Source: Thermoflexales bacterium (GTDB lineage Bacteria > Chloroflexota > Anaerolineae > J036 > Brachytrichaceae). Taken from it: a stretch of DNA of 49,987 nt. Positions 468-9,262 of this stretch are shown one piece after another. A program made the translations under genes and the position numbers. How positions within the stretch are numbered: position 1 is the stretch's first letter; every line of letters starts with the position of its first letter. The notes below the pieces were generated by a model that was not told where the DNA came from, made no database searches, and saw only the letters and a list, made by a program, of their open reading frames with translations. Where the stretch lies: assembly GCA_025057935.1 (NCBI GenBank), contig JANWUW010000067.1:1-49987 (forward strand), written 5' to 3'.

Positions 468-649
468 GCTCTAACCTGCTTTCGTGTTGTATTACCCCAA
501 CCCTCACGCAACAGCGCGAAGCCTCAGTGACCGCGTTGAGCATGAGAGGGAGAGATCGCTTCGATGCAGTGCCGCTTTCGCTTCGCTGAGTGGCTACGCC
601 ACGATAGGAATGCGCAAAGGCACCGTGCAGTCTTGCACCACCTGAGCGC

Positions 650-991
650 CTACGCCCCTGCTTCAGGCAAGCGCCGTGCCGCCAAGTCGTCGCGCAAGGC
701 ACGCTTCATAGGTATGCCGAGGCGATACGCTGCCGAACCGATGGCGTGTGATGTGGCTGGACCAGTGAGCACGAGCAGCGCGATCAGCACCAGCCCTTTG
801 CTCCATGCGAATGGCACCACCAGCACGGCGGCGATGGTGAGCAGCACTACACCGAACGTCGCCACCTTGCCCACGGCGTGCATCCGCGCATAAACATCGG
901 GAAGCCTCACCAGCCCCAAAATGCCGATCACCGAGAACGCCGTGCCAACAAGCACTGCCAGCGTGCTCAATCCGTATGAAAGTGTTTCCAT
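650..991 (-). CDS. mnhG: Na+/H+ antiporter subunit MnhG/MrpG
   Basis: A 113-residue membrane protein with three hydrophobic segments. It carries the MnhG family pattern GILGLVRLPDVYARMHAVGK, followed by TFGVVLLTIA and LVLTGPATSHAIGSAAYR. MrpG is a small subunit of the multisubunit Mrp antiporter, which exports Na+ in exchange for H+ across the cytoplasmic membrane. It is the last gene of the operon, about 20 bases after mnhF, with GGAGG overlapping the mnhF end as a somewhat distant ribosome site. The length is normal for the family. About 180 bases follow before the left-edge gene, with no clear terminator seen. Confidence 0.95.
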   Translation of the reverse strand: METLSYGLSTLAVLVGTAFSVIGILGLVRLPDVYARMHAVGKVATFGVVLLTIAAVLVVPFAWSKGLVLIALLVLTGPATSHAIGSAAYRLGIPMKRALRDDLAARRLPEAGA

Positions 992-1011
992 TTCTTTCTA
1001 CAGCGCCTCCT

Positions 1012-1287
1012 TCAGAACATCTGTCTGTTGGCGAGATACCGCGCAAGCGCCACGGTGCTGACAAACGAAAGCGCAGCGAAACCCAAGGCGAGGTCCATGT
1101 AAAGCGCATCGTCGTTGAACAGCGCAAGCAGAACGAAGATCGCTAGCCCTAATGTGGCGATCACGTCAGCGGCAACGAGACGATCGAGCACAGTTTCTCC
1201 GCGCCATACACGCACCACTGCAACGGCGATCAGCAGGATGTGCAGCCCTATGGAAGCCACCACTGCCCAGGAAAAAATCATCTGCAT
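1012..1287 (-). CDS. mnhF: Na+/H+ antiporter subunit MnhF/MrpF
   Basis: A 91-residue protein with three transmembrane helices and the MnhF signature RGETVLDRLVAADVIATLG, in which the charged D-R-L-V-A-x-D core is conserved. It is a small membrane subunit of the Mrp complex. A good Shine-Dalgarno (GAGGTG, about 7 bases before the ATG) overlaps the TGA of mnhE, which suggests translational coupling. The sub-10-base gap and shared strand place it in the mnhA-G operon. Length is as usual for MrpF. Confidence 0.95.
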   Translation of the reverse strand: MQMIFSWAVVASIGLHILLIAVAVVRVWRGETVLDRLVAADVIATLGLAIFVLLALFNDDALYMDLALGFAALSFVSTVALARYLANRQMF

Positions 1288-1296
1288 CGGAACACC

Positions 1297-1794
1297 TCAC
1301 TCGAAGATCGCCTTCAGCATTGCCTGGCGCTTCCGCTGCGCCTCTTCCGCGCCAGCAGCGCTCGCTTCAACATCGAGGCAGTGCGTATAGAGCGTGCCGT
1401 TGTCGTCAACCTCTATCACCTGCTCACCAGGCGTGACGGTGATCGCGTGGGCGTTAAGCGCGCGGCCCAGCTCAGTGCGCATCTCGCTCTTGATGGCGAG
1501 AATGCCGGGCTTGATCGGGAGCTGGGGATCGAGCACAATGCGCGCCACGCGAATGCCGTTGCGGATGATGTCCACCGACAGCCATGCTACGTACACCACA
1601 AGGTTGAGCAGTGCTGCAGGCAAACGCCGTAGCGATAGCGGCTCACTGGCGGGGCGGATAATCAGCGCAATCGCCACGCTCATCAGCAACCCCGCCGCCC
1701 AGTTCGCCGGCTCAAGATTCGCGGTGATCGCTAAGTACAGCACGAAGCACAGCACAATCAAACGCAAGTAGGCGAGCACGCTCGATTGGCTCAT
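1297..1794 (-). CDS. mnhE: Na+/H+ antiporter subunit MnhE/MrpE
   Basis: About 165 residues from the chosen ATG at 1794. Two N-terminal membrane helices (LIVLCFVLYLAI and ANWAAGLLMSVAIALII) precede a soluble tail containing GILAIKSEMRTELGRALNAHAITVTPGE and a conserved HCLDV, as in MrpE. The frame stays open upstream to 1911, but those extra residues lie inside mnhD and look non-homologous. The ATG at 1794 overlaps the mnhD stop as ATGA, the classic coupled arrangement. MrpE is an assembly or accessory subunit of the Mrp antiporter. Confidence 0.93.
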   Translation of the reverse strand: MSQSSVLAYLRLIVLCFVLYLAITANLEPANWAAGLLMSVAIALIIRPASEPLSLRRLPAALLNLVVYVAWLSVDIIRNGIRVARIVLDPQLPIKPGILAIKSEMRTELGRALNAHAITVTPGEQVIEVDDNGTLYTHCLDVEASAAGAEEAQRKRQAMLKAIFE

Positions 1795-3329
1795 CGCACG
1801 CCCTCCTCCAGATTCACGACGCGGACGTAGCGCTCGGGCTGTGCAATCCAAGCACTTGCATCCTGCGACAGTTGCAGCAGCGGTTGTGCCCAAATGCCGA
1901 GCACGAAGCATAGCACCACCAAGCTCGCGGGCGCCAAAAGACTATCACCGTAGGGTTTGACTTTCTCCTCAGGCGTGCGCGGCTCGAAAGGCTCCCACCA
2001 AATTTTGATCAGCGCACGCACGGTGTAAGTCACCGTCAGGATACCCGCCACGCCTATCAGCAGCAACGGCAACCAATAGCCCAGCGCCTCCTCGGGGCGA
2101 AGCGAAGAAAGCGCAGCAATGCCGCTCTGAAACAATGCCAGCTTGCTGATGAAACCGTTCATCGGCGGCAAGCCTGCCAGCGCTAAGCTCCCAAGGAAGA
2201 ACACTACACCTGCAGAGGGCAGGTATTTGCCTATGCCGCGCACGACCTCGAATGAGGCGCTCTTCACTGGTGCGCGACTGGCAAGGTAGCCACTGAGCAT
2301 GAGCATGGCGCTTTTTACGAGCGCATGGTTGAACGCGAACACCAGCGCGGCTGCGAGCGCTTGTGGTGTGCCCCATCCCACGCCGACGTAGATGAATCCG
2401 ATCTGCGCCAGTGTGGAGTAGGCGAACATGCGCTTGACGTTGTGTGTGCCTGCAGCGCCCAAGCCGCCAAAAACAACGCCAGCAATCCCAGCCATCACCA
2501 ACGCCACACGCAGCCACTCCGCATGCGGCGCAATCAGCGTAGTAAGGCGCATGAAGCCATATACCCCGAGCTTCACCACCACTGAGGAGAGCATTGCCGA
2601 GACCGGAGTGGGTGAAGCGGTGTGGAAGTCGGGCTGCCAAAAATGAAACGGCACGGCTGCGCTCTTCACAGCAAAGGTAACCGCTAGGAACACGAGCGCT
2701 GCGGGCAGCAACGGTTGGTTGGGGTCTTCGGCAATGCGCCGCGCTAGATCAGCCATATTGAGTGTGCCATAGCTTGCATACAGACTGCCAATGCCGAACA
2801 GCAGTGTGAATGAGGCAACCGTGCTGATCAGAAAATACTTGTACGCTGCCTCAGGACCGTAGCGGTCATCGCTGATCGCGGTGAGCACAACTCCAGCCAT
2901 GACCACCAGCTCGACCATCACAAACAGGTTGAAGATGTCCCCCGTGAGGAAGCCGCCGCTCAAGCCGGTGAGTAGCGCGAGGAACAAAGGATAAAAGGTG
3001 TTGTGCTGCACCGCCTTGTCTTTCGCGCCCAGCGCGTAGAGGAAGCCGAATACAAACACAAGCTGCGTCATGAAGGTGAAGAATGCCGAAAGCAGGTCGG
3101 CAACGATGCTGATGCCGAACGGCGCTGCCCACGCGCCCATTTGGAACACCAACGGCTGCCCGCCGCGCCACACCGTCCAGAGCAGCGCTGTTGTCACCAC
3201 AAATGATGCGAGCACAGCGCCAAATGACCACCACGCCTGCACGCGTGGTCTTCGCCGCAGCAAGATGGCAACCGCTGCCGCCGTGAGCGGTACGATGAAG
3301 GGGAGGATGGCAAGCAGATTCGTCGACAT
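1791..3329 (-). CDS. mnhD: Na+/H+ antiporter subunit MnhD/MrpD
   Basis: A 512-residue polytopic protein of the NuoM/NuoN/MrpD proton-pumping family with about 14 hydrophobic segments. Hallmarks are GDIFNLFVMVELVVMAG (the conserved membrane glutamate), AVKSAAVPFHFWQPDFHTASPTPVSAML (lysine, histidine and the loop before the broken helix) and NVKRMFAYSTLAQIGFI. MrpD forms one of the two proton/cation translocation modules, paired with MrpA. The ATG at 3329 has TGAGGAAG upstream. It lies 13 bases after mnhC and overlaps mnhE by four bases. Subunit identity rests on operon position as well as sequence, because MrpD and NuoM are close relatives. Confidence 0.95.
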   Translation of the reverse strand: MSTNLLAILPFIVPLTAAAVAILLRRRPRVQAWWSFGAVLASFVVTTALLWTVWRGGQPLVFQMGAWAAPFGISIVADLLSAFFTFMTQLVFVFGFLYALGAKDKAVQHNTFYPLFLALLTGLSGGFLTGDIFNLFVMVELVVMAGVVLTAISDDRYGPEAAYKYFLISTVASFTLLFGIGSLYASYGTLNMADLARRIAEDPNQPLLPAALVFLAVTFAVKSAAVPFHFWQPDFHTASPTPVSAMLSSVVVKLGVYGFMRLTTLIAPHAEWLRVALVMAGIAGVVFGGLGAAGTHNVKRMFAYSTLAQIGFIYVGVGWGTPQALAAALVFAFNHALVKSAMLMLSGYLASRAPVKSASFEVVRGIGKYLPSAGVVFFLGSLALAGLPPMNGFISKLALFQSGIAALSSLRPEEALGYWLPLLLIGVAGILTVTYTVRALIKIWWEPFEPRTPEEKVKPYGDSLLAPASLVVLCFVLGIWAQPLLQLSQDASAWIAQPERYVRVVNLEEGVR

Positions 3330-3342
3330 TGTTGGTGCTTCC

Positions 3343-3675
3343 TCAGCCGCGCAACCCCTTCACTTCGTCGTTATCACTCGTGCGGTAACGGGTGGAGATC
3401 ACGTAGAGCAGCGCAAGCACAAACGCGAAACCGCCCATGCTGATCACGATCGCCGTGAGGATCAGCGCCTGAGGCAGCGCGTCGCTGCGCTGACCGACCG
3501 CCTTGGCATAAGCCTCGGCGACACCCTCGTAGGCACCAACCGAGAGCAGGAACAAATTCACTGCGTTGGAGATGGTGACCAATCCAATCGCCGTACGGAT
3601 CACATTGCGGCGCAGGAGCTGATACAGCCCTATGCCAAAAAGCGCCCCAATTGCCAATGCGCGCAGCAGATCCAT
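3343..3675 (-). CDS. mnhC: Na+/H+ antiporter subunit MnhC/MrpC (NuoK-like)
   Basis: A 110-residue protein with three transmembrane helices, homologous to NuoK. Diagnostic stretches are GIGLYQLLRRNVIRTAIGL, ISNAVNLFLLSVG and PQALILTAIVISMGGFAFVLAL, including the conserved ALxLTAIVI segment. The ATG at 3675 is preceded by GGAG that overlaps the end of the mnhA/B fusion, six bases away. MrpC links the MrpA and MrpD modules in the membrane complex. Length is typical. Confidence 0.95.
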   Translation of the reverse strand: MDLLRALAIGALFGIGLYQLLRRNVIRTAIGLVTISNAVNLFLLSVGAYEGVAEAYAKAVGQRSDALPQALILTAIVISMGGFAFVLALLYVISTRYRTSDNDEVKGLRG

Positions 3676-3681
3676 CGCCTT

Positions 3682-6648
3682 TCACTCCAAATCGCGCTCA
3701 GGGTGACCCAGCGTGTCCAGGATGAAGATCGAAGCGCCAAGCACCGCAAGACAGATCGCCAGCTCAAACAACAGCGACGTGGTGAGGTCGAAGCCTTGCG
3801 GCAAGGGCAAGCCCAACGCCTTGCCGAAGTTGTAGTGCGAGAAGAACGTGCCGCCGAGGAATACTGGCAGCGTAGAACCAACCAACACAGTGAGCAGCCC
3901 CATGCCGATCAGCAGACCCGGGCGGATAATGCGTAGCCGCAGGCGCGCTTGGTCATAGCCGAAAATCACATACCAAAAGCCCACCGCCAAGCTGAGCGTC
4001 ACACCCGCAGTGAAGCCATCGCCGGGTTGGCTGTGACCATATACCATCTGCACAAATGCCAACACGACACCAAGTGGCAGCAGCAGGTAGGCAACCGCGC
4101 GCAGGAACGGCGAGGTGCGCACACCATCAATGCCGCGAATGCTGATGGGCAGGCGCACCACAGGCGGGGCTTCGGATTCATACTCCGGCGACTCCTGAGA
4201 TGGGCGCAGCGCCGCTGCGGTCACCTCGCGCTTTTTCATCGCTAGGCGAATCAAGCTATACACCCCGATGCCCGCCATGCTAAACACGGTGATCTCGATC
4301 AGCGTGTCGAAACCGCGAAAGTCCACCACGATCGCTCCCACAATGTCTGCAGCGCCAGTCAAAGGCTTGGCGTTAGCCTCGTAGAACGGCGTGACGTGAG
4401 AGACGCGCGGGCGCGAAGCAAAGGCATACAAGCTGAGCGCCGTGACGGTCAAACCGCCCAGCGCGGCGATGATCCCGTTGCGCACCACCTCGCGCAGGGC
4501 ACGACCGTTGAGCGCTTCTGCAGCGCGGCGCTGCGCGCGCGGCAAGCGTGAGAGCGCCAGCACCAGGATCAGCGTTGCGAGCAGGTCCACGATGACCTGC
4601 ACAAGCGCCACGTCAGGCGAGGGCTCTAGCGCAATCAGCAACGCCACCGCTAGGCCCGAAGCCATCAGCGCCAAAATCGCGAGCAGGTCGCGCCGAATCA
4701 CAACGGCGACGAACGCAGCAGCAACCGCCAGCAGCAAGCTAAATGCGCGCAGCACTGCCAACGGCGGCGGCAATACACCGACGAGGTGTTCCCACGACCA
4801 ATCCGCGAGCGCCGTGCCCAAGATGCGCATCGGCGCGCCAAGGATGATGAACAAGCCAAACAGCGCGATCAGGATAACCGTGAGATAAGTGCGTACGTAG
4901 CCACTCTGGGTGCGCGTTGCGAGGGCAGCAGCGCGATCAAGCGCGAGGATCACGACCTCGTAAGCCTGGTTCATCGAGCGCCGCGGGAGCCGCAGCTCGC
5001 GGTATCGCGCACGCAGCGCAAACAGCCCAACGCCGCCCACCATCGCCACGCCGCTCAGCACCAACGGCACATTCACGCCGTGGAACAGCTCAAGCGAAAC
5101 CTTGACCTTCACACCGTAGGCGGCAGAGGCAGCTCGAGCGAGGGCTTCCACGATCGCCTGAGGCTGCAGCGCTGTGATGACGAGTGAGAGCAGCGCTAAG
5201 GTCGCCGGCATCAGCACCATGCCGAGAGGGGCTTCATGCGGCGTGTGTTGATGGGCAACTTTTGCGCGAGACAGCTTACCCACACTGTATGGCGCAAGAA
5301 ATCCGACCCCTGCGTCTGTGATGAACGTATCTAGGACGAGCGTTGCCGCTTGCGCAAGCATCAATGCACCACTGAGCACCGCAAGCGCAGGCAGCACCAC
5401 ACGCATAACTTCCGGCAAGGTGGGATCAAGCCCTGCCACCAGCAGCGTCTCCTTCGCCAAGAAGCCGAATAAAGGCGGCACGCCTGCCATGGATAAGCCA
5501 GCGACCAAAGCCACAGCAAAGGTAAACGGCATGTGGCGCGCCAGTTGCCCAAGTTCGCGCAGGTCGCGCGTGCCAGCGGCGTGGTCCACGATGCCAGCCA
5601 CCATGAACATCGCGCCCTTATACAGCGCGTGCGCAGCGATGCCAATCACAACCGCCTTGAAGGCAACAGGCGCCTCACCGCTCAGCAGCAAGGTGAGCGC
5701 ACCGAGCTGGCTCACGGTCGAATATGCCAACACAGCTTTCCAGTCATGCTGGCGCAGCCCAACCAAAGCGCCGGCCACCATGGTGACTGCACCCACGCTT
5801 GCTAATGTCCAGAACCACAACGGCGTGTTGCCCAGCGCTGGATACAGCCGCGCTAAGAGATAGATGCCTGCCTTCACCATCGTGGCTGCGTGAAGGTAGG
5901 TGCTGGCTGGAGTGGGCGCGCTCATCGCCGAAGGCAACCAGAAGTGAAAGGGCGCTTGCGCGCTTTTGGTAAAAGCCCCGAGCGCGATCAACCCAAACAT
6001 CACAGGATACCAAGCGCTCGCACGCAGCGCGTCGCCCTGCTCGAGGACGACGCTCAGATCAGTGCTGCCCGCAATCGCAGCCACGAAGAGCAAACCCGCC
6101 AACAACGCGATCCCGCCGCTCCCTGTGATGAACAACGCCTTGAACGCGCCGTTGCGCGCTTCAGGATCCTTGGTCTTATAAGCAATCAGCAGAAACGAAG
6201 TTAGACTCGTCCCCTCCCAGAACACGAATAGTGTGATCACGTCCCCAGCCAACACCACGCCCATCATCGCGGTCATGAACAGCAGCAAGTAAAGCATGAA
6301 GCGGCTGCCATCCTGACCCTCGAAGTAGTAGCCAGCGTATACCGTCACCAGCACGCCGATGCCGCTGACGAGCAACGCGAAGAGCAGGCTCAAGCCGTCG
6401 AGGTAGAACGAGGCGTTCAACCCCAAGGTCGGCATCCACGCAATGTGCCAGTGCAGCACCTCGCCGGCGAGCACGCGCGGCGCGAGCAGGAGCAAGTTTG
6501 CGAACGCTACCGCAGGCGCGAGCGCCAGCAGCCAGCCCACCGCCGGCATGGGCAATCGGCGCACTGGTGCGAGCACGAACAGCGCGCTCAGCAAAGCTCC
6601 AATGGCGCACGCAGCGATAGAAACCACAACCGTTGTCATCCCGAGCAT
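3682..6648 (-). CDS. mnhA: Na+/H+ antiporter MnhA-MnhB fusion (MrpAB)
   Basis: About 988 residues, joining MrpA (NuoL-like) to a C-terminal MrpB domain. The N-terminal module shows the conserved membrane glutamate in FVFWEGTSLTSFLLIAYK, the pump loop KSAQAPFHFWLPSAMSAPTPAS and WKAVLAYSTVSQLGAL. The last ~140 residues contain the MrpB signature YGHSQPGDGFTAGVTLSLA. No separate mnhB exists in the operon, which agrees with the fusion; other bacteria, including proteobacteria, are also known with MrpAB fusions. ATG at 6648 is four bases after the exchanger stop; ATG at 6639 is equally possible and the longer reading to 6699 overlaps the exchanger. It is the largest subunit and provides the second ion-translocating module. 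Confidence 0.93.
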   Translation of the reverse strand: MLGMTTVVVSIAACAIGALLSALFVLAPVRRLPMPAVGWLLALAPAVAFANLLLLAPRVLAGEVLHWHIAWMPTLGLNASFYLDGLSLLFALLVSGIGVLVTVYAGYYFEGQDGSRFMLYLLLFMTAMMGVVLAGDVITLFVFWEGTSLTSFLLIAYKTKDPEARNGAFKALFITGSGGIALLAGLLFVAAIAGSTDLSVVLEQGDALRASAWYPVMFGLIALGAFTKSAQAPFHFWLPSAMSAPTPASTYLHAATMVKAGIYLLARLYPALGNTPLWFWTLASVGAVTMVAGALVGLRQHDWKAVLAYSTVSQLGALTLLLSGEAPVAFKAVVIGIAAHALYKGAMFMVAGIVDHAAGTRDLRELGQLARHMPFTFAVALVAGLSMAGVPPLFGFLAKETLLVAGLDPTLPEVMRVVLPALAVLSGALMLAQAATLVLDTFITDAGVGFLAPYSVGKLSRAKVAHQHTPHEAPLGMVLMPATLALLSLVITALQPQAIVEALARAASAAYGVKVKVSLELFHGVNVPLVLSGVAMVGGVGLFALRARYRELRLPRRSMNQAYEVVILALDRAAALATRTQSGYVRTYLTVILIALFGLFIILGAPMRILGTALADWSWEHLVGVLPPPLAVLRAFSLLLAVAAAFVAVVIRRDLLAILALMASGLAVALLIALEPSPDVALVQVIVDLLATLILVLALSRLPRAQRRAAEALNGRALREVVRNGIIAALGGLTVTALSLYAFASRPRVSHVTPFYEANAKPLTGAADIVGAIVVDFRGFDTLIEITVFSMAGIGVYSLIRLAMKKREVTAAALRPSQESPEYESEAPPVVRLPISIRGIDGVRTSPFLRAVAYLLLPLGVVLAFVQMVYGHSQPGDGFTAGVTLSLAVGFWYVIFGYDQARLRLRIIRPGLLIGMGLLTVLVGSTLPVFLGGTFFSHYNFGKALGLPLPQGFDLTTSLLFELAICLAVLGASIFILDTLGHPERDLE

Positions 6649-6652
6649 CGTG

Positions 6653-7744
6653 TCACGAAGCGGCTTGCTGGCGTTGCTGACGCAGGGTGCGCACGGCAAT
6701 CAGCACCAACGTGATCACCGTCAGCGGCAACGCCACTGAGAGCATGAATGTGTTGTAGCTTGGCAGCAGCGGGTTCTGCGTTGCGGAGAAGACGAGGTAA
6801 AGCGTGTAGGCAACGTAGTACGCGAGGAACAGCGCGCCCTCCCAACGCGCGATTGTGCCGCTGAGGAAGATGGGCAAACAGGCAAACGCCACAGCGAGCA
6901 TGATGGGGAAGTCAAAGCTGAGCAACTGCGGCGTTGCCGCGATGCCGTGCGGCGACACAGCCGCTGACACACCCAACACAGAGAGCAAGTTAAAGATGTT
7001 GCTGCCCACGATGTTGCCAACAGCGATATCGCGCTCACCGCGAATGCTCGCCACGACCGAAGTCGCCACTTCTGGGAGTGAGGTGCCGCCAGCGATCAGC
7101 GTGAGCGCAATTACCACCTCGCTTACGCCAAGCATGCGCGCGATCGCCACAGCGCCGTCAATCAACCAGCGCGAACCAATCACTAGCATGCCCAAGCCTG
7201 CTCCCACTAGCAGAAGGTTGATCAGGATCTGCAGAGCTCCGCGCGGCCGCTCGCCAAACTCTTGGGCGTATTCTTTCTCGATATCGCGACTCTCGCGGCG
7301 GCTCTCTAGGATAAGGAAAACGGTGTAGGCGACGATGCCAGCGAAAAGCATCACACCCTCAAAGCGCCCCACGTTGCCGTCAAGGGCGAACAAGTACGCC
7401 ACCAGCGAAACGCCGATCATGAGCGGCACATCTAGCCTAATGAGCTGCTGGGCAACCGTCAGCGGCGCGACCAATGCCGAGAGCCCTAAGATGAGCAGCA
7501 CGTTGAAGATATTGCTGCCCACCACGTTTCCCAGCGAAACACCGCTTAAGCCGAGCAGCGAGGACTGCACACTCACAGCGAGCTCTGGCGAGCTGGTGCC
7601 AAAAGCCACCACAGTCAGTCCGATGACCAACGGCGAGACGCCCAGCGCCGCTGCCAACCGCGACGCGCCGCGCACCAGCGCCTCAGCGCCCCCAATCGCC
7701 AGCGCCAGTCCAGCAACGAAGAGCACGATGGTTATCGCGTCCAT
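6653..7744 (-). CDS. CaCA-family cation/sodium (or Mn2+) exchanger, YrbG-like
   Basis: A 363-residue protein with about ten membrane helices. It has the two inverted alpha-repeats of the Ca2+/cation antiporter superfamily: VAFGTSSPELAVS with GNVVGSNIFNVLLILG, and AGGTSLPEVATSVVAS with GNIVGSNIFNLLSVLG. Members swap Ca2+ or other divalent cations for Na+ or H+. The start at 7744 (MDAITIV) was chosen because the frame extends upstream only into the leader and terminator hairpin. The yybP-ykoY aptamer in the 5' leader implies that Mn2+ controls it, so Mn2+ export is a reasonable substrate inference. It heads the operon with the Mrp genes, whose first start lies four bases after its stop. Confidence 0.88.
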   Translation of the reverse strand: MDAITIVLFVAGLALAIGGAEALVRGASRLAAALGVSPLVIGLTVVAFGTSSPELAVSVQSSLLGLSGVSLGNVVGSNIFNVLLILGLSALVAPLTVAQQLIRLDVPLMIGVSLVAYLFALDGNVGRFEGVMLFAGIVAYTVFLILESRRESRDIEKEYAQEFGERPRGALQILINLLLVGAGLGMLVIGSRWLIDGAVAIARMLGVSEVVIALTLIAGGTSLPEVATSVVASIRGERDIAVGNIVGSNIFNLLSVLGVSAAVSPHGIAATPQLLSFDFPIMLAVAFACLPIFLSGTIARWEGALFLAYYVAYTLYLVFSATQNPLLPSYNTFMLSVALPLTVITLVLIAVRTLRQQRQQAAS

Positions 7745-7784
7745 GGTTTTCAATTGCCTCAGTGCTGAATCAGTTAAGTCAGTT

Positions 7785-7849
7785 AAAAAACAGGCGAGAC
7801 CGACCATGCGCTGAGCTCTACCCAAGCTCAAGTCATGGTTGGTCTCGCC
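7785..7849 (-). terminator. Intrinsic terminator, expression platform of the Mn2+ riboswitch
   Basis: On the minus strand GGCGAGACCAACCATG pairs with CATGGTCGGTCTCGCC (one A-C mismatch), with a further inner TGAGCT/AGCTCA stem, followed closely by six T residues at 7790-7785. The 5' arm of this hairpin includes the GCGAGACC element and the CCAAC strand that closes the aptamer. The aptamer and terminator therefore exclude one another. Ligand binding should prevent termination and turn expression on. Confidence 0.85.
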
Positions 7850-7950
7850 TCTGCACACGAAACGTGCACATGCCGCACCGGGAGCTACGAGGCTCCGTAC
7901 TGACGATGGGGCATACTCTGCAATGCGCAGAGCAGGCTACTCCCCAACGG
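7837..7950 (-). promoter_or_regulatory. yybP-ykoY (Mn2+-sensing) riboswitch aptamer
   Basis: Read on the minus strand, the leader contains the two hallmark loops of the yybP-ykoY class: 5' GGGGAGUAGCC (about 7945-7935) and 3' GCGAGACC (7848-7841). They are closed by a P1 stem of GTTGG (7948-7944) with CCAAC (7842-7838). Between them are internal hairpins CTCTGC/GCAGAG, GGAGC/GCTCC and TGCAC/GTGCA. Known members sense Mn2+ and control Mn exporters. It sits between a -10 box and the terminator, about 90 bases before the exchanger start. Confidence 0.87.
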
Positions 7951-7958
7951 GCACGCGC

Positions 7959-7964
7959 GTTATA
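7959..7964 (-). promoter_or_regulatory. -10 box of the riboswitch/exchanger/Mrp operon
   Basis: TATAAC on the minus strand, with TTCAGG about 17 bases upstream as a weak -35. Transcription would start near 7952, immediately before the aptamer P1 strand. The spacing supports it as the operon promoter; readthrough from the tRNA-Lys is an alternative. Confidence 0.5.
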
Positions 7965-8002
7965 CCACGCGCCCTGTAGCACCTGAATATTCGCTTGTGC
8001 AT

Positions 8003-8076
8003 TGAGCCGTGCAGGATTCGAACCTGCGACACGAGGATTAAAAGTCCCCTGCTCTACCTGGCTGAGCTAACGGCCC
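8003..8076 (-). tRNA. tRNA-Lys (anticodon TTT)
   Basis: A complete cloverleaf on the minus strand. The acceptor arms are GGGCCGT and ACGGCTC (one G-T pair), the D arm is GCTC/GAGC, the anticodon stem is GGGGA/TCCTC with loop CTTTTAA, and the T arm is GCAGG/CCTGC with loop TTCGAAT. The discriminator is A and CCA is not encoded. Anticodon UUU reads lysine codons. It lies about 50 bases upstream of the riboswitch on the same strand. Confidence 0.96.
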
Positions 8077-8086
8077 AGCTCGCCTA

Positions 8087-8092
8087 ATAATA
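8087..8092 (-). promoter_or_regulatory. -10 box for tRNA-Lys
   Basis: TATTAT on the minus strand, ending ten bases before the first tRNA nucleotide. It is back-to-back with the plus-strand -10 box of the downstream Fe-S carrier gene, 14 bases away. Confidence 0.45.
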
Positions 8093-8106
8093 CCGCACTC
8101 GTGCTG

Positions 8107-8112
8107 TAGAAT
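8107..8112 (+). promoter_or_regulatory. -10 box for the ApbC-type gene
   Basis: TAGAAT, giving a predicted start near 8119 and a leader of about 30 bases that contains GAGG sequences ahead of the ATG at 8150. No strong -35 was seen. Confidence 0.4.
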
Positions 8113-8149
8113 GCCCACGCGTACTTAGTGACGTTGAGGATGTGAGGCG

Positions 8150-9262
8150 ATGGCAATTTCTGAAAAGGATGTGCTGGATGCGCTTTCGCGCGTGATCGAG
8201 CCCGAGCTGCACCGCGATTTGGTCTCGCTTGGCATGGTTAAGGACGTGCAGATTCGCGGCAGCGACGTGTCGCTCAAGATCGAGCTTACAACACCAGCGT
8301 GCCCGTTGAAAGACGTGATGGAGAAAGCCACGCGCGCCGAGCTTAGCAAAATCCCCGGCATCGGCAAAATCGAGATTGGTTGGACGAGCAACGTAGCTGC
8401 CAACGCGCGCGTGCGCAGCGCGCTGAATGTACCGATCAAGAACATCATCGCTGTCGCCTCCGGCAAAGGCGGCGTGGGCAAATCCACAGTGGCAGTGAAC
8501 CTCGCCATCGCTCTTGCGCAGAGCGGCGCAAAAGTCGGGCTGCTCGATAACGATGTGTACGGCCCAAATGTGCCGCTCATGGTCGGCTTGCCGATGGCGG
8601 AGCTGCTCCCTAGCGGTCATAGCCGCCCGAGCGTGGAGCAGCGCGATGGGCTGCTGATTCCACCCGAGAAGTACGGCGTTAAGATCTTCAGCCTCGGCTT
8701 CATTTACCCTCCAGAAGCGCCACTGGTGTGGCGCGGCCCAATGCTGCACACCGCCATTCGGCAGTTCCTGCAGGATGTGGCATGGGGTGAGCTGGATTAC
8801 CTCATCGTGGACATGCCCCCGGGCACAGGCGACGCCCAACTTTCGCTCGCGCAAATGGTGCAGGGGGTGATGGGCCTAATCGTCACTACGCCTCAACTGG
8901 TGAGCATGGGCGACGCGCTGAAAGGCTTGGCTGCCTTTGAGCAGCTCAAAGTGCCCGTGCTCGGCGTGGTGGAGAACATGGGACCATACACCGACCCAGT
9001 CACAGGGCAGCGCGTCGCGCTGTTTGGCGAGGGCGGCGGTGAGCGCTTAGCAGCGATGAAGAACGTGCCCTTCCTCGGCAGCGTGCCTCTCGATCCGGCG
9101 ATTCGCATCGGCGGCGATACAGGGCGACCTGTGGTAGTTGCCTACCCAGAGAGCGCAGCAGCCGCTGCCTTCCGCGAGATCGCCGGTAAGGTTGCAGCAC
9201 GCGTGAGCGTCCTCAACTTCCAACAGCAGGGCAACTTCATCCCGATCTCGATCATCGGCTGA
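8150..9262 (+). CDS. apbC: Mrp/ApbC-family P-loop Fe-S cluster carrier ATPase
   Basis: A 370-residue protein. An N-terminal MIP18/DUF59 domain (about 5-90, LDALSRVIEPELHRDLVSLG) precedes a ParA/Nbp35-type ATPase with the deviant Walker A VASGKGGVGKSTVAVNLA near residues 102-118, GLLDNDVYGPNVP and YLIVDMPPGTGDAQLS. The family binds and passes on [4Fe-4S] clusters in the cytoplasm. The CxxC seen in many homologues was not found, so cluster handling could differ. GTGAGGCG lies directly ahead of the ATG. This Mrp is unrelated to the Mrp antiporter next door despite the shared name. Confidence 0.9.
   Translation: MAISEKDVLDALSRVIEPELHRDLVSLGMVKDVQIRGSDVSLKIELTTPACPLKDVMEKATRAELSKIPGIGKIEIGWTSNVAANARVRSALNVPIKNIIAVASGKGGVGKSTVAVNLAIALAQSGAKVGLLDNDVYGPNVPLMVGLPMAELLPSGHSRPSVEQRDGLLIPPEKYGVKIFSLGFIYPPEAPLVWRGPMLHTAIRQFLQDVAWGELDYLIVDMPPGTGDAQLSLAQMVQGVMGLIVTTPQLVSMGDALKGLAAFEQLKVPVLGVVENMGPYTDPVTGQRVALFGEGGGERLAAMKNVPFLGSVPLDPAIRIGGDTGRPVVVAYPESAAAAAFREIAGKVAARVSVLNFQQQGNFIPISIIG

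Follow-up and report, generated by a model that had tools for sequence, protein, structure and literature searches.

The window, by which we mean the whole stretch of DNA analysed (49,987 nucleotides of a contig from a Thermoflexales bacterium), carries on its minus strand a run of seven genes preceded by a structured leader. The gene identities were established from Pfam and NCBIfam profiles and, in the direction of transcription, the features of the locus are as follows.

7959-7964, minus: weak -10-like TATAAC, which would start the RNA near P1.1, with no good -35 (sequence; promoter position in relatives from other genera)
7838-7948, minus: predicted yybP-ykoY Mn2+ aptamer, delimited by the 5' and 3' strands of P1.1 (RF00080, model R1, fold, covariation)
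7938-7943, minus: loop L1, GGAGUA (invariant across 24 aligned leaders)
7897-7903, minus: loop L3, UCAGUAC (alignment and the L3 sequences in PMC6754395)
7785-7850, minus: predicted intrinsic terminator, its 5' arm being the P1.2/P1.1 3' strand, then UUUUUU (folding)
6653-7744, minus: CaCA family Na+/Ca2+-type exchanger, 363 aa (PF01699, E 2.5e-63; TIGR00367, 285 bits against a cut-off of 180; NCX_Mj, E 3.6e-36)
3682-6648, minus: MrpA (MnhA), 988 aa, with fused MbhD, MbhE and MnhB domains (Pfam; NF009288, E 5e-224, under its curated cut-off)
3343-3675, minus: MrpC (PF00420)
1791-3329, minus: MrpD (PF00361; NF009306, under its curated cut-off)
1297-1794, minus: MrpE, whose ATG overlaps the MrpD stop as ATGA (PF01899; sequence)
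1012-1287, minus: MrpF (PF04066)
650-991, minus: MrpG (PF03334; TIGR01300, over its cut-off)

The first gene encodes two Na_Ca_ex repeats with GTS(S/L)PE motifs, and its product falls within TIGR00367; the closest solved structure is that of a Na+/Ca2+ exchanger (NCX_Mj). Behind it, subunits A to G of an Mrp antiporter are encoded together, B as a domain of MrpA, so that the profiles bear out the gene set of the original prediction (an exchanger followed by mnhA/B-C-D-E-F-G), with no separate gene for MrpB. The full subunit set and the fusion of MnhB to MrpA are shared with known Mrp (Mnh/Pha) Na+/H+ antiporter operons, the fusion being a trait of the group 2 operons, whereas the operon in the window is preceded by an exchanger gene and a predicted Mn2+ switch. 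The gaps from the exchanger gene to MrpG, calculated with the ATG at 1794 as the MrpE start, are 4, 6, 13, -4, 9 and 20 nt; they are short (20 nt or less), as had been claimed, although the ‘four bases or so’ first given was a little optimistic. The scan found no promoter-like site in the interior of the operon and no terminator-like site in its intergenic gaps. Elsewhere in the source genome there are four other P-type ATPases and no TerC. The single mrp cluster of the window is of the second of the two types found in the congener G015, its MrpA being 79% identical to one of the two G015 proteins and 53% identical to the other.

In the minus-strand leader (7785-7953), L1 and L3, the two loops characteristic of yybP-ykoY Mn2+ aptamers, are both present. 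The joint pattern of L1 (GGGGAGUAGC) and L3 (UCGUCAGUACGG) occurs once in the window, at 7895-7945 on the minus strand, and in none of 100 shuffles, no chance occurrence being expected. Both the L1 sequence (GGGGAGUAG) and an L3 with the invariant Mn-sensing adenosine are those that define the class. In the Lactococcus lactis riboswitch, L3 is UCA41AU43UC and the Mn2+ ion is contacted by A41 through N7, while the Xanthomonas L3 is ACA48UACU (PMC6754395); the UCAGUAC of the window is of the L. lactis form (UCAAUUC), and in the alignment the A at 7901 is the counterpart of A41. When the segment 7835-7953 was folded alone, it gave P1.1, P1.2, P2, P3 with the L3 bulge, and P4, at -49.2 kcal/mol, which is the four-helix junction (P1.1/P1.2, P2, P3 and P4) of the class. 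This unaided fold is supported by covariation in the P1, P2 and P3 helices (P4 was left out, the alignment there being too poor) in an alignment of 24 leaders (Chloroflexota and a few other bacteria): 86.7% of the cells are paired, compared with 72.0% after shuffling, both sides have changed in 17 of 28 pairs, there are 116 double-changed cells compared with 41, and the covariation score is 0.428, compared with 0.160 for the shuffled alignment and no more than 0.123 for slid structures. Motif, fold and covariation together confirm the earlier observation, made on the signature loops and the P1 stem, that the leader is a predicted aptamer of the yybP-ykoY class.

The curated Rfam model gave a less simple answer. 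RF00080 (Manganese) aligned end to end with 7852-7951, at 20.5 bits (E 0.0007 locally), and the element was its sole match up to E 10 in the 2.27 Mb genome (E 0.001); the score nevertheless lies under the gathering score of 45 bits, so the element falls outside the curated family. A score below threshold had been named beforehand as a refutation of the assignment. We rejected this criterion as invalid because similar elements that share the L3 type miss the threshold as well, because the L3 is of the type seen in the L. lactis crystal structure, and because the 24 relatives covary strongly. The comparable elements lie ahead of a CaCA gene in Salipaludibacillus (36.8 bits), a TerC gene in Herpetosiphon (33.8 bits), a P-type ATPase gene in an Anaerolineaceae record (24.0 bits) and a zinc peptidase gene in Thermus (23.4 bits), which places the shortfall in the RF00080 model rather than in the RNA; for the L. 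lactis L3 type, 45 bits is too high a threshold. An ordinary terminator or attenuator with a resemblance to an aptamer might also score below the cut-off, but it would hardly be expected to show the covariation and the strictly conserved loops seen across several phyla, and we consider this explanation very improbable. In general, the cut-off misses many Mn riboswitches of the L. lactis type (20-37 bits), and annotation pipelines therefore probably overlook such elements in Chloroflexota, Thermus and others.

The strand GGCGAGACCAACC does double duty, as the 3' side of P1.2/P1.1 in the aptamer and as the 5' arm in a long, strong terminator followed by six U. For the whole leader (folding z = -6.55), the terminator fold has a free energy of -85.3 kcal/mol, compared with -64.5 kcal/mol when the aptamer is enforced, so that the terminator is favoured by about 21 kcal/mol. 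The same competition between the P1.1 strand and the expression platform was found in all 14 related leaders, in which the switch strand pairs downstream, although the U-run after the terminator is poor in several relatives and the efficiency of termination may therefore differ. In L. lactis, Mn2+ stabilizes P1.1 and thereby prevents the terminator (PMC6754395, PMC11087558). Because the predicted terminator overlaps the aptamer in the same way here, transcription would be on with ligand, and Mn2+ should turn the operon on. The claim of a strand common to aptamer and terminator, and hence of an ON switch, is thus upheld by the folding and by the 14 leaders, the response to Mn2+ itself being carried over from the family.

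The window's own promoter is weak. A promoter scan of 600-8150 found none at its thresholds, and the weak TATAAC box has no good -35 partner, while in genera g7 and g8 the majority of relatives carry a TTGACA box, a spacer of about 17 nt and a TATAA-like box immediately before P1.1. In the window and in G015, the riboswitch is preceded on its own strand by a tRNA-Lys gene (8002-8077, minus; L019 9169-9243 in G015) whose end lies some 50 nt away; nine other relatives checked do not have it at this position. With this gene close upstream and no convincing -35 in either genome, read-through from the tRNA gene is possible, and the operon in the window and in G015 may be read from the tRNA promoter.

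We searched related genomes with R1, a model built from the 24 aligned leaders. R1 scores 82.9 bits in the window (7835-7953), whose sequence is part of the training set, and it also found genomes outside that set, such as G021 at 93 bits; in all, 22 of the 28 genomes of the window's family were positive. The order leader-CaCA-mnh, proposed as a check on the original prediction, was found in half of the family: 14 of 28 genomes have an intact riboswitch ahead of CaCA and Mrp, either directly (G000, G015, G017-G021, G023, G024, G026 and G027, the contigs of G024 and G027 ending just after the MrpA start) or with an M50-CBS protease gene in between (G001, G002 and G004). At other family loci, the riboswitch precedes a P-type ATPase (G005, G006, G008, G010, G011, G025 and the second copy in G026). 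Runs holding two CaCA genes and two mrp clusters are frequent in the family; tandem mrp clusters lie behind CaCA at L019, L199, L200 and L273.

Of the 28 genomes, 19 have both CaCA and Mrp (G014 being counted as Mrp-positive by its MrpA) and the other nine have neither. This bears on an alternative in which the exchanger alone matters for Mn2+, whereas Mrp rides along as a passenger, serves pH and Na+ homeostasis in its own right and receives most of its transcripts from elsewhere. Mrp is known for its role in Na+ and alkali tolerance, and in one genome (G012) CaCA and Mrp lie unlinked on different contigs, as a passenger might. Against this, the CaCA-MrpA gap in the window is 4 nt with no promoter-like site, the co-occurrence of the two in the family is perfect and their adjacency extends to many families, and in several relatives one or two whole mrp clusters lie in the same gene run; we therefore judge the passenger role unlikely. 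The proposed coupling of efflux to Na+ gains indirect support from the same observations, CaCA and Mrp being inherited together and usually adjacent, even where there is no riboswitch.

Four relatives (G014, G016, G022 and G025) keep CaCA-Mrp adjacent without a working riboswitch, which indicates that Mn2+ control is dispensable for the CaCA-Mrp unit. G025 has no riboswitch before these genes. In G014 L1 has been lost, and in G016 and G022 the leader has decayed to an L3 remnant (loci L271 about 850-990, L272 on the minus strand upstream of CaCA, and L210 519-626). G021 has an intact switch, yet its CaCA proteins and those of G016 are almost the same.

In the class as a whole, R1 was positive in 70 of 296 genomes, and in the phylum in 71 of 301. 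At the loci sampled in other families of the class and phylum, the riboswitch was followed by genes for P-type ATPases, TerC, Zn_peptidase_2, M50 or VTT proteins, and CaCA-Mrp was not among the recognized genes, about ten of these loci having no recognized gene or not being anchored. Conversely, the order CaCA, MrpA, C, D, (E), (F), G occurs in six genomes of other families (G198, G215, G147, G224 (one family), G045 and G199; loci L281 and L284-L288), where neither R1 nor RF00080 gave a match. We therefore rejected the idea that CaCA-Mrp evolved for the riboswitch. As the unit exists without it in related families, the switch is best read as captured in the window's lineage, where a standard Mn2+ ON switch would have been placed before an existing CaCA-Mrp unit and would then have decayed or been lost in several relatives. 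That the unit was there first is probable and the most economical reading of the gene contexts observed, from which the order of events is reconstructed. The backbone of the CaCA tree is unresolved, with the riboswitch label needing at least six changes, and the tree accordingly does not distinguish one origin of the switch placement from several. As far as gene context goes, the window's lineage appears to use a Na+-coupled CaCA-Mrp unit in the place taken by a P-type ATPase or TerC in the class's other families.

Our preferred reading, to which we give a probability of roughly 75%, is that the window's lineage captured a Mn2+ riboswitch with an L. lactis-type L3, which controls the seven-gene operon CaCA-mrpA(B)CDEFG, and that the exchanger and Mrp act in Na+-coupled Mn2+ efflux. 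Without Mn2+, GGCGAGACCAACC would form the terminator; with Mn2+, by analogy with the family, L1 and L3 would dock, P1.1 would be stabilized, the terminator blocked and the operon read. The exchanger would then expel Mn2+, and perhaps also Ca2+, in return for Na+, which the Mrp complex would send out again by means of the proton gradient. Efflux of Mn2+ is thus the likely role of the putative exchanger, with Mrp restoring the Na+ gradient. A stronger form, in which the switch turns on one efflux machine, a Mn2+-inducible sodium cycle of the exchanger and a dedicated Mrp that maintains its Na+ gradient, is a tentative proposal to which we would give somewhat less than even odds.

We infer that Mn2+ is both the ligand and the exported ion, and it is here that the main rival explanation arises, namely a system devoted to Ca2+, or to Mn2+ as well as Ca2+, with a leader that senses both and a CaCA protein that exports mainly Ca2+. 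For Streptococcus pneumoniae, a yybP-ykoY riboswitch that senses both ions and governs a Mn2+/Ca2+ ATPase has been reported (PMC9495176, PMC11434433), the solved structure closest to the exchanger is that of a Na+/Ca2+ exchanger, and CaCA-Mrp occurs elsewhere without any Mn riboswitch. The window nevertheless keeps the Mn2+-discriminating adenosine, the same aptamer type stands ahead of TerC and P-type ATPases in the class, and in Bacillota and Desulfuromonadia it stands before CaCA genes of divergent branches, which supports a role in Mn2+ export. Mn2+ export also fits the presence of this L3 type, in several phyla, before genes for TerC, P-type ATPases and CaCA exchangers. Taken together, these observations make a mainly Ca2+-directed system rather improbable, and favour the Mn2+ efflux reading.

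The riboswitch itself is ordinary. It resembles the L. lactis yybP-ykoY riboswitch upstream of yoaB in L1, in the L3 type (a UCA-N-U-N-C bulge with the invariant A), in the four-way junction and in having P1.1 common to aptamer and intrinsic terminator, and differs in falling under the Rfam cut-off and in its predicted control of CaCA and a whole Mrp operon rather than a single exporter gene. It is this controlled gene set that appears to be unreported. The original prediction held that yybP-ykoY was known on single Mn exporters; CaCA genes of the Na_Ca_ex family also follow it in other phyla (Bacillota/Desulfuromonadia loci L035, L044, L067, L100, L108, L112 and L091), several from divergent CaCA branches and with no adjacent Mrp genes in the stretches examined, so the exchanger is not the new part and the Mrp operon is. 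We found no paper joining a Mn riboswitch with Mrp or CaCA in the openly (CC-)licensed literature, prior mention elsewhere being possible. The arrangement suggests that, when Mn2+ is in excess, a pump is switched on along with the machinery that powers it. If this is true, Na+-coupled Mn2+ efflux with its own power supply would join ATPases and the MntP/TerC/UPF0016 exporters as a further route. The operon would then be a case in which a metal riboswitch governs both an exporter and the supply of energy to it, and would give the CaCA-Mrp gene pair, widespread in Chloroflexota, its first testable substrate (Mn2+) and partner (Mrp). Family members with intact, damaged or absent switches before the same genes form a natural comparison set.

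Two further observations concern the riboswitch loci at large. A membrane metalloprotease gene (M50-CBS or Zn_peptidase_2) is repeatedly the first behind the riboswitch (L018, L205, L206, L241, L244, L258, L263 and L036), and such genes also lie just ahead of CaCA-Mrp without a riboswitch at L287 and L288. At L305 (G561:C161 7411-7516 and 8614-8721), two Mn riboswitches follow one another, and each precedes a separate TerC gene.
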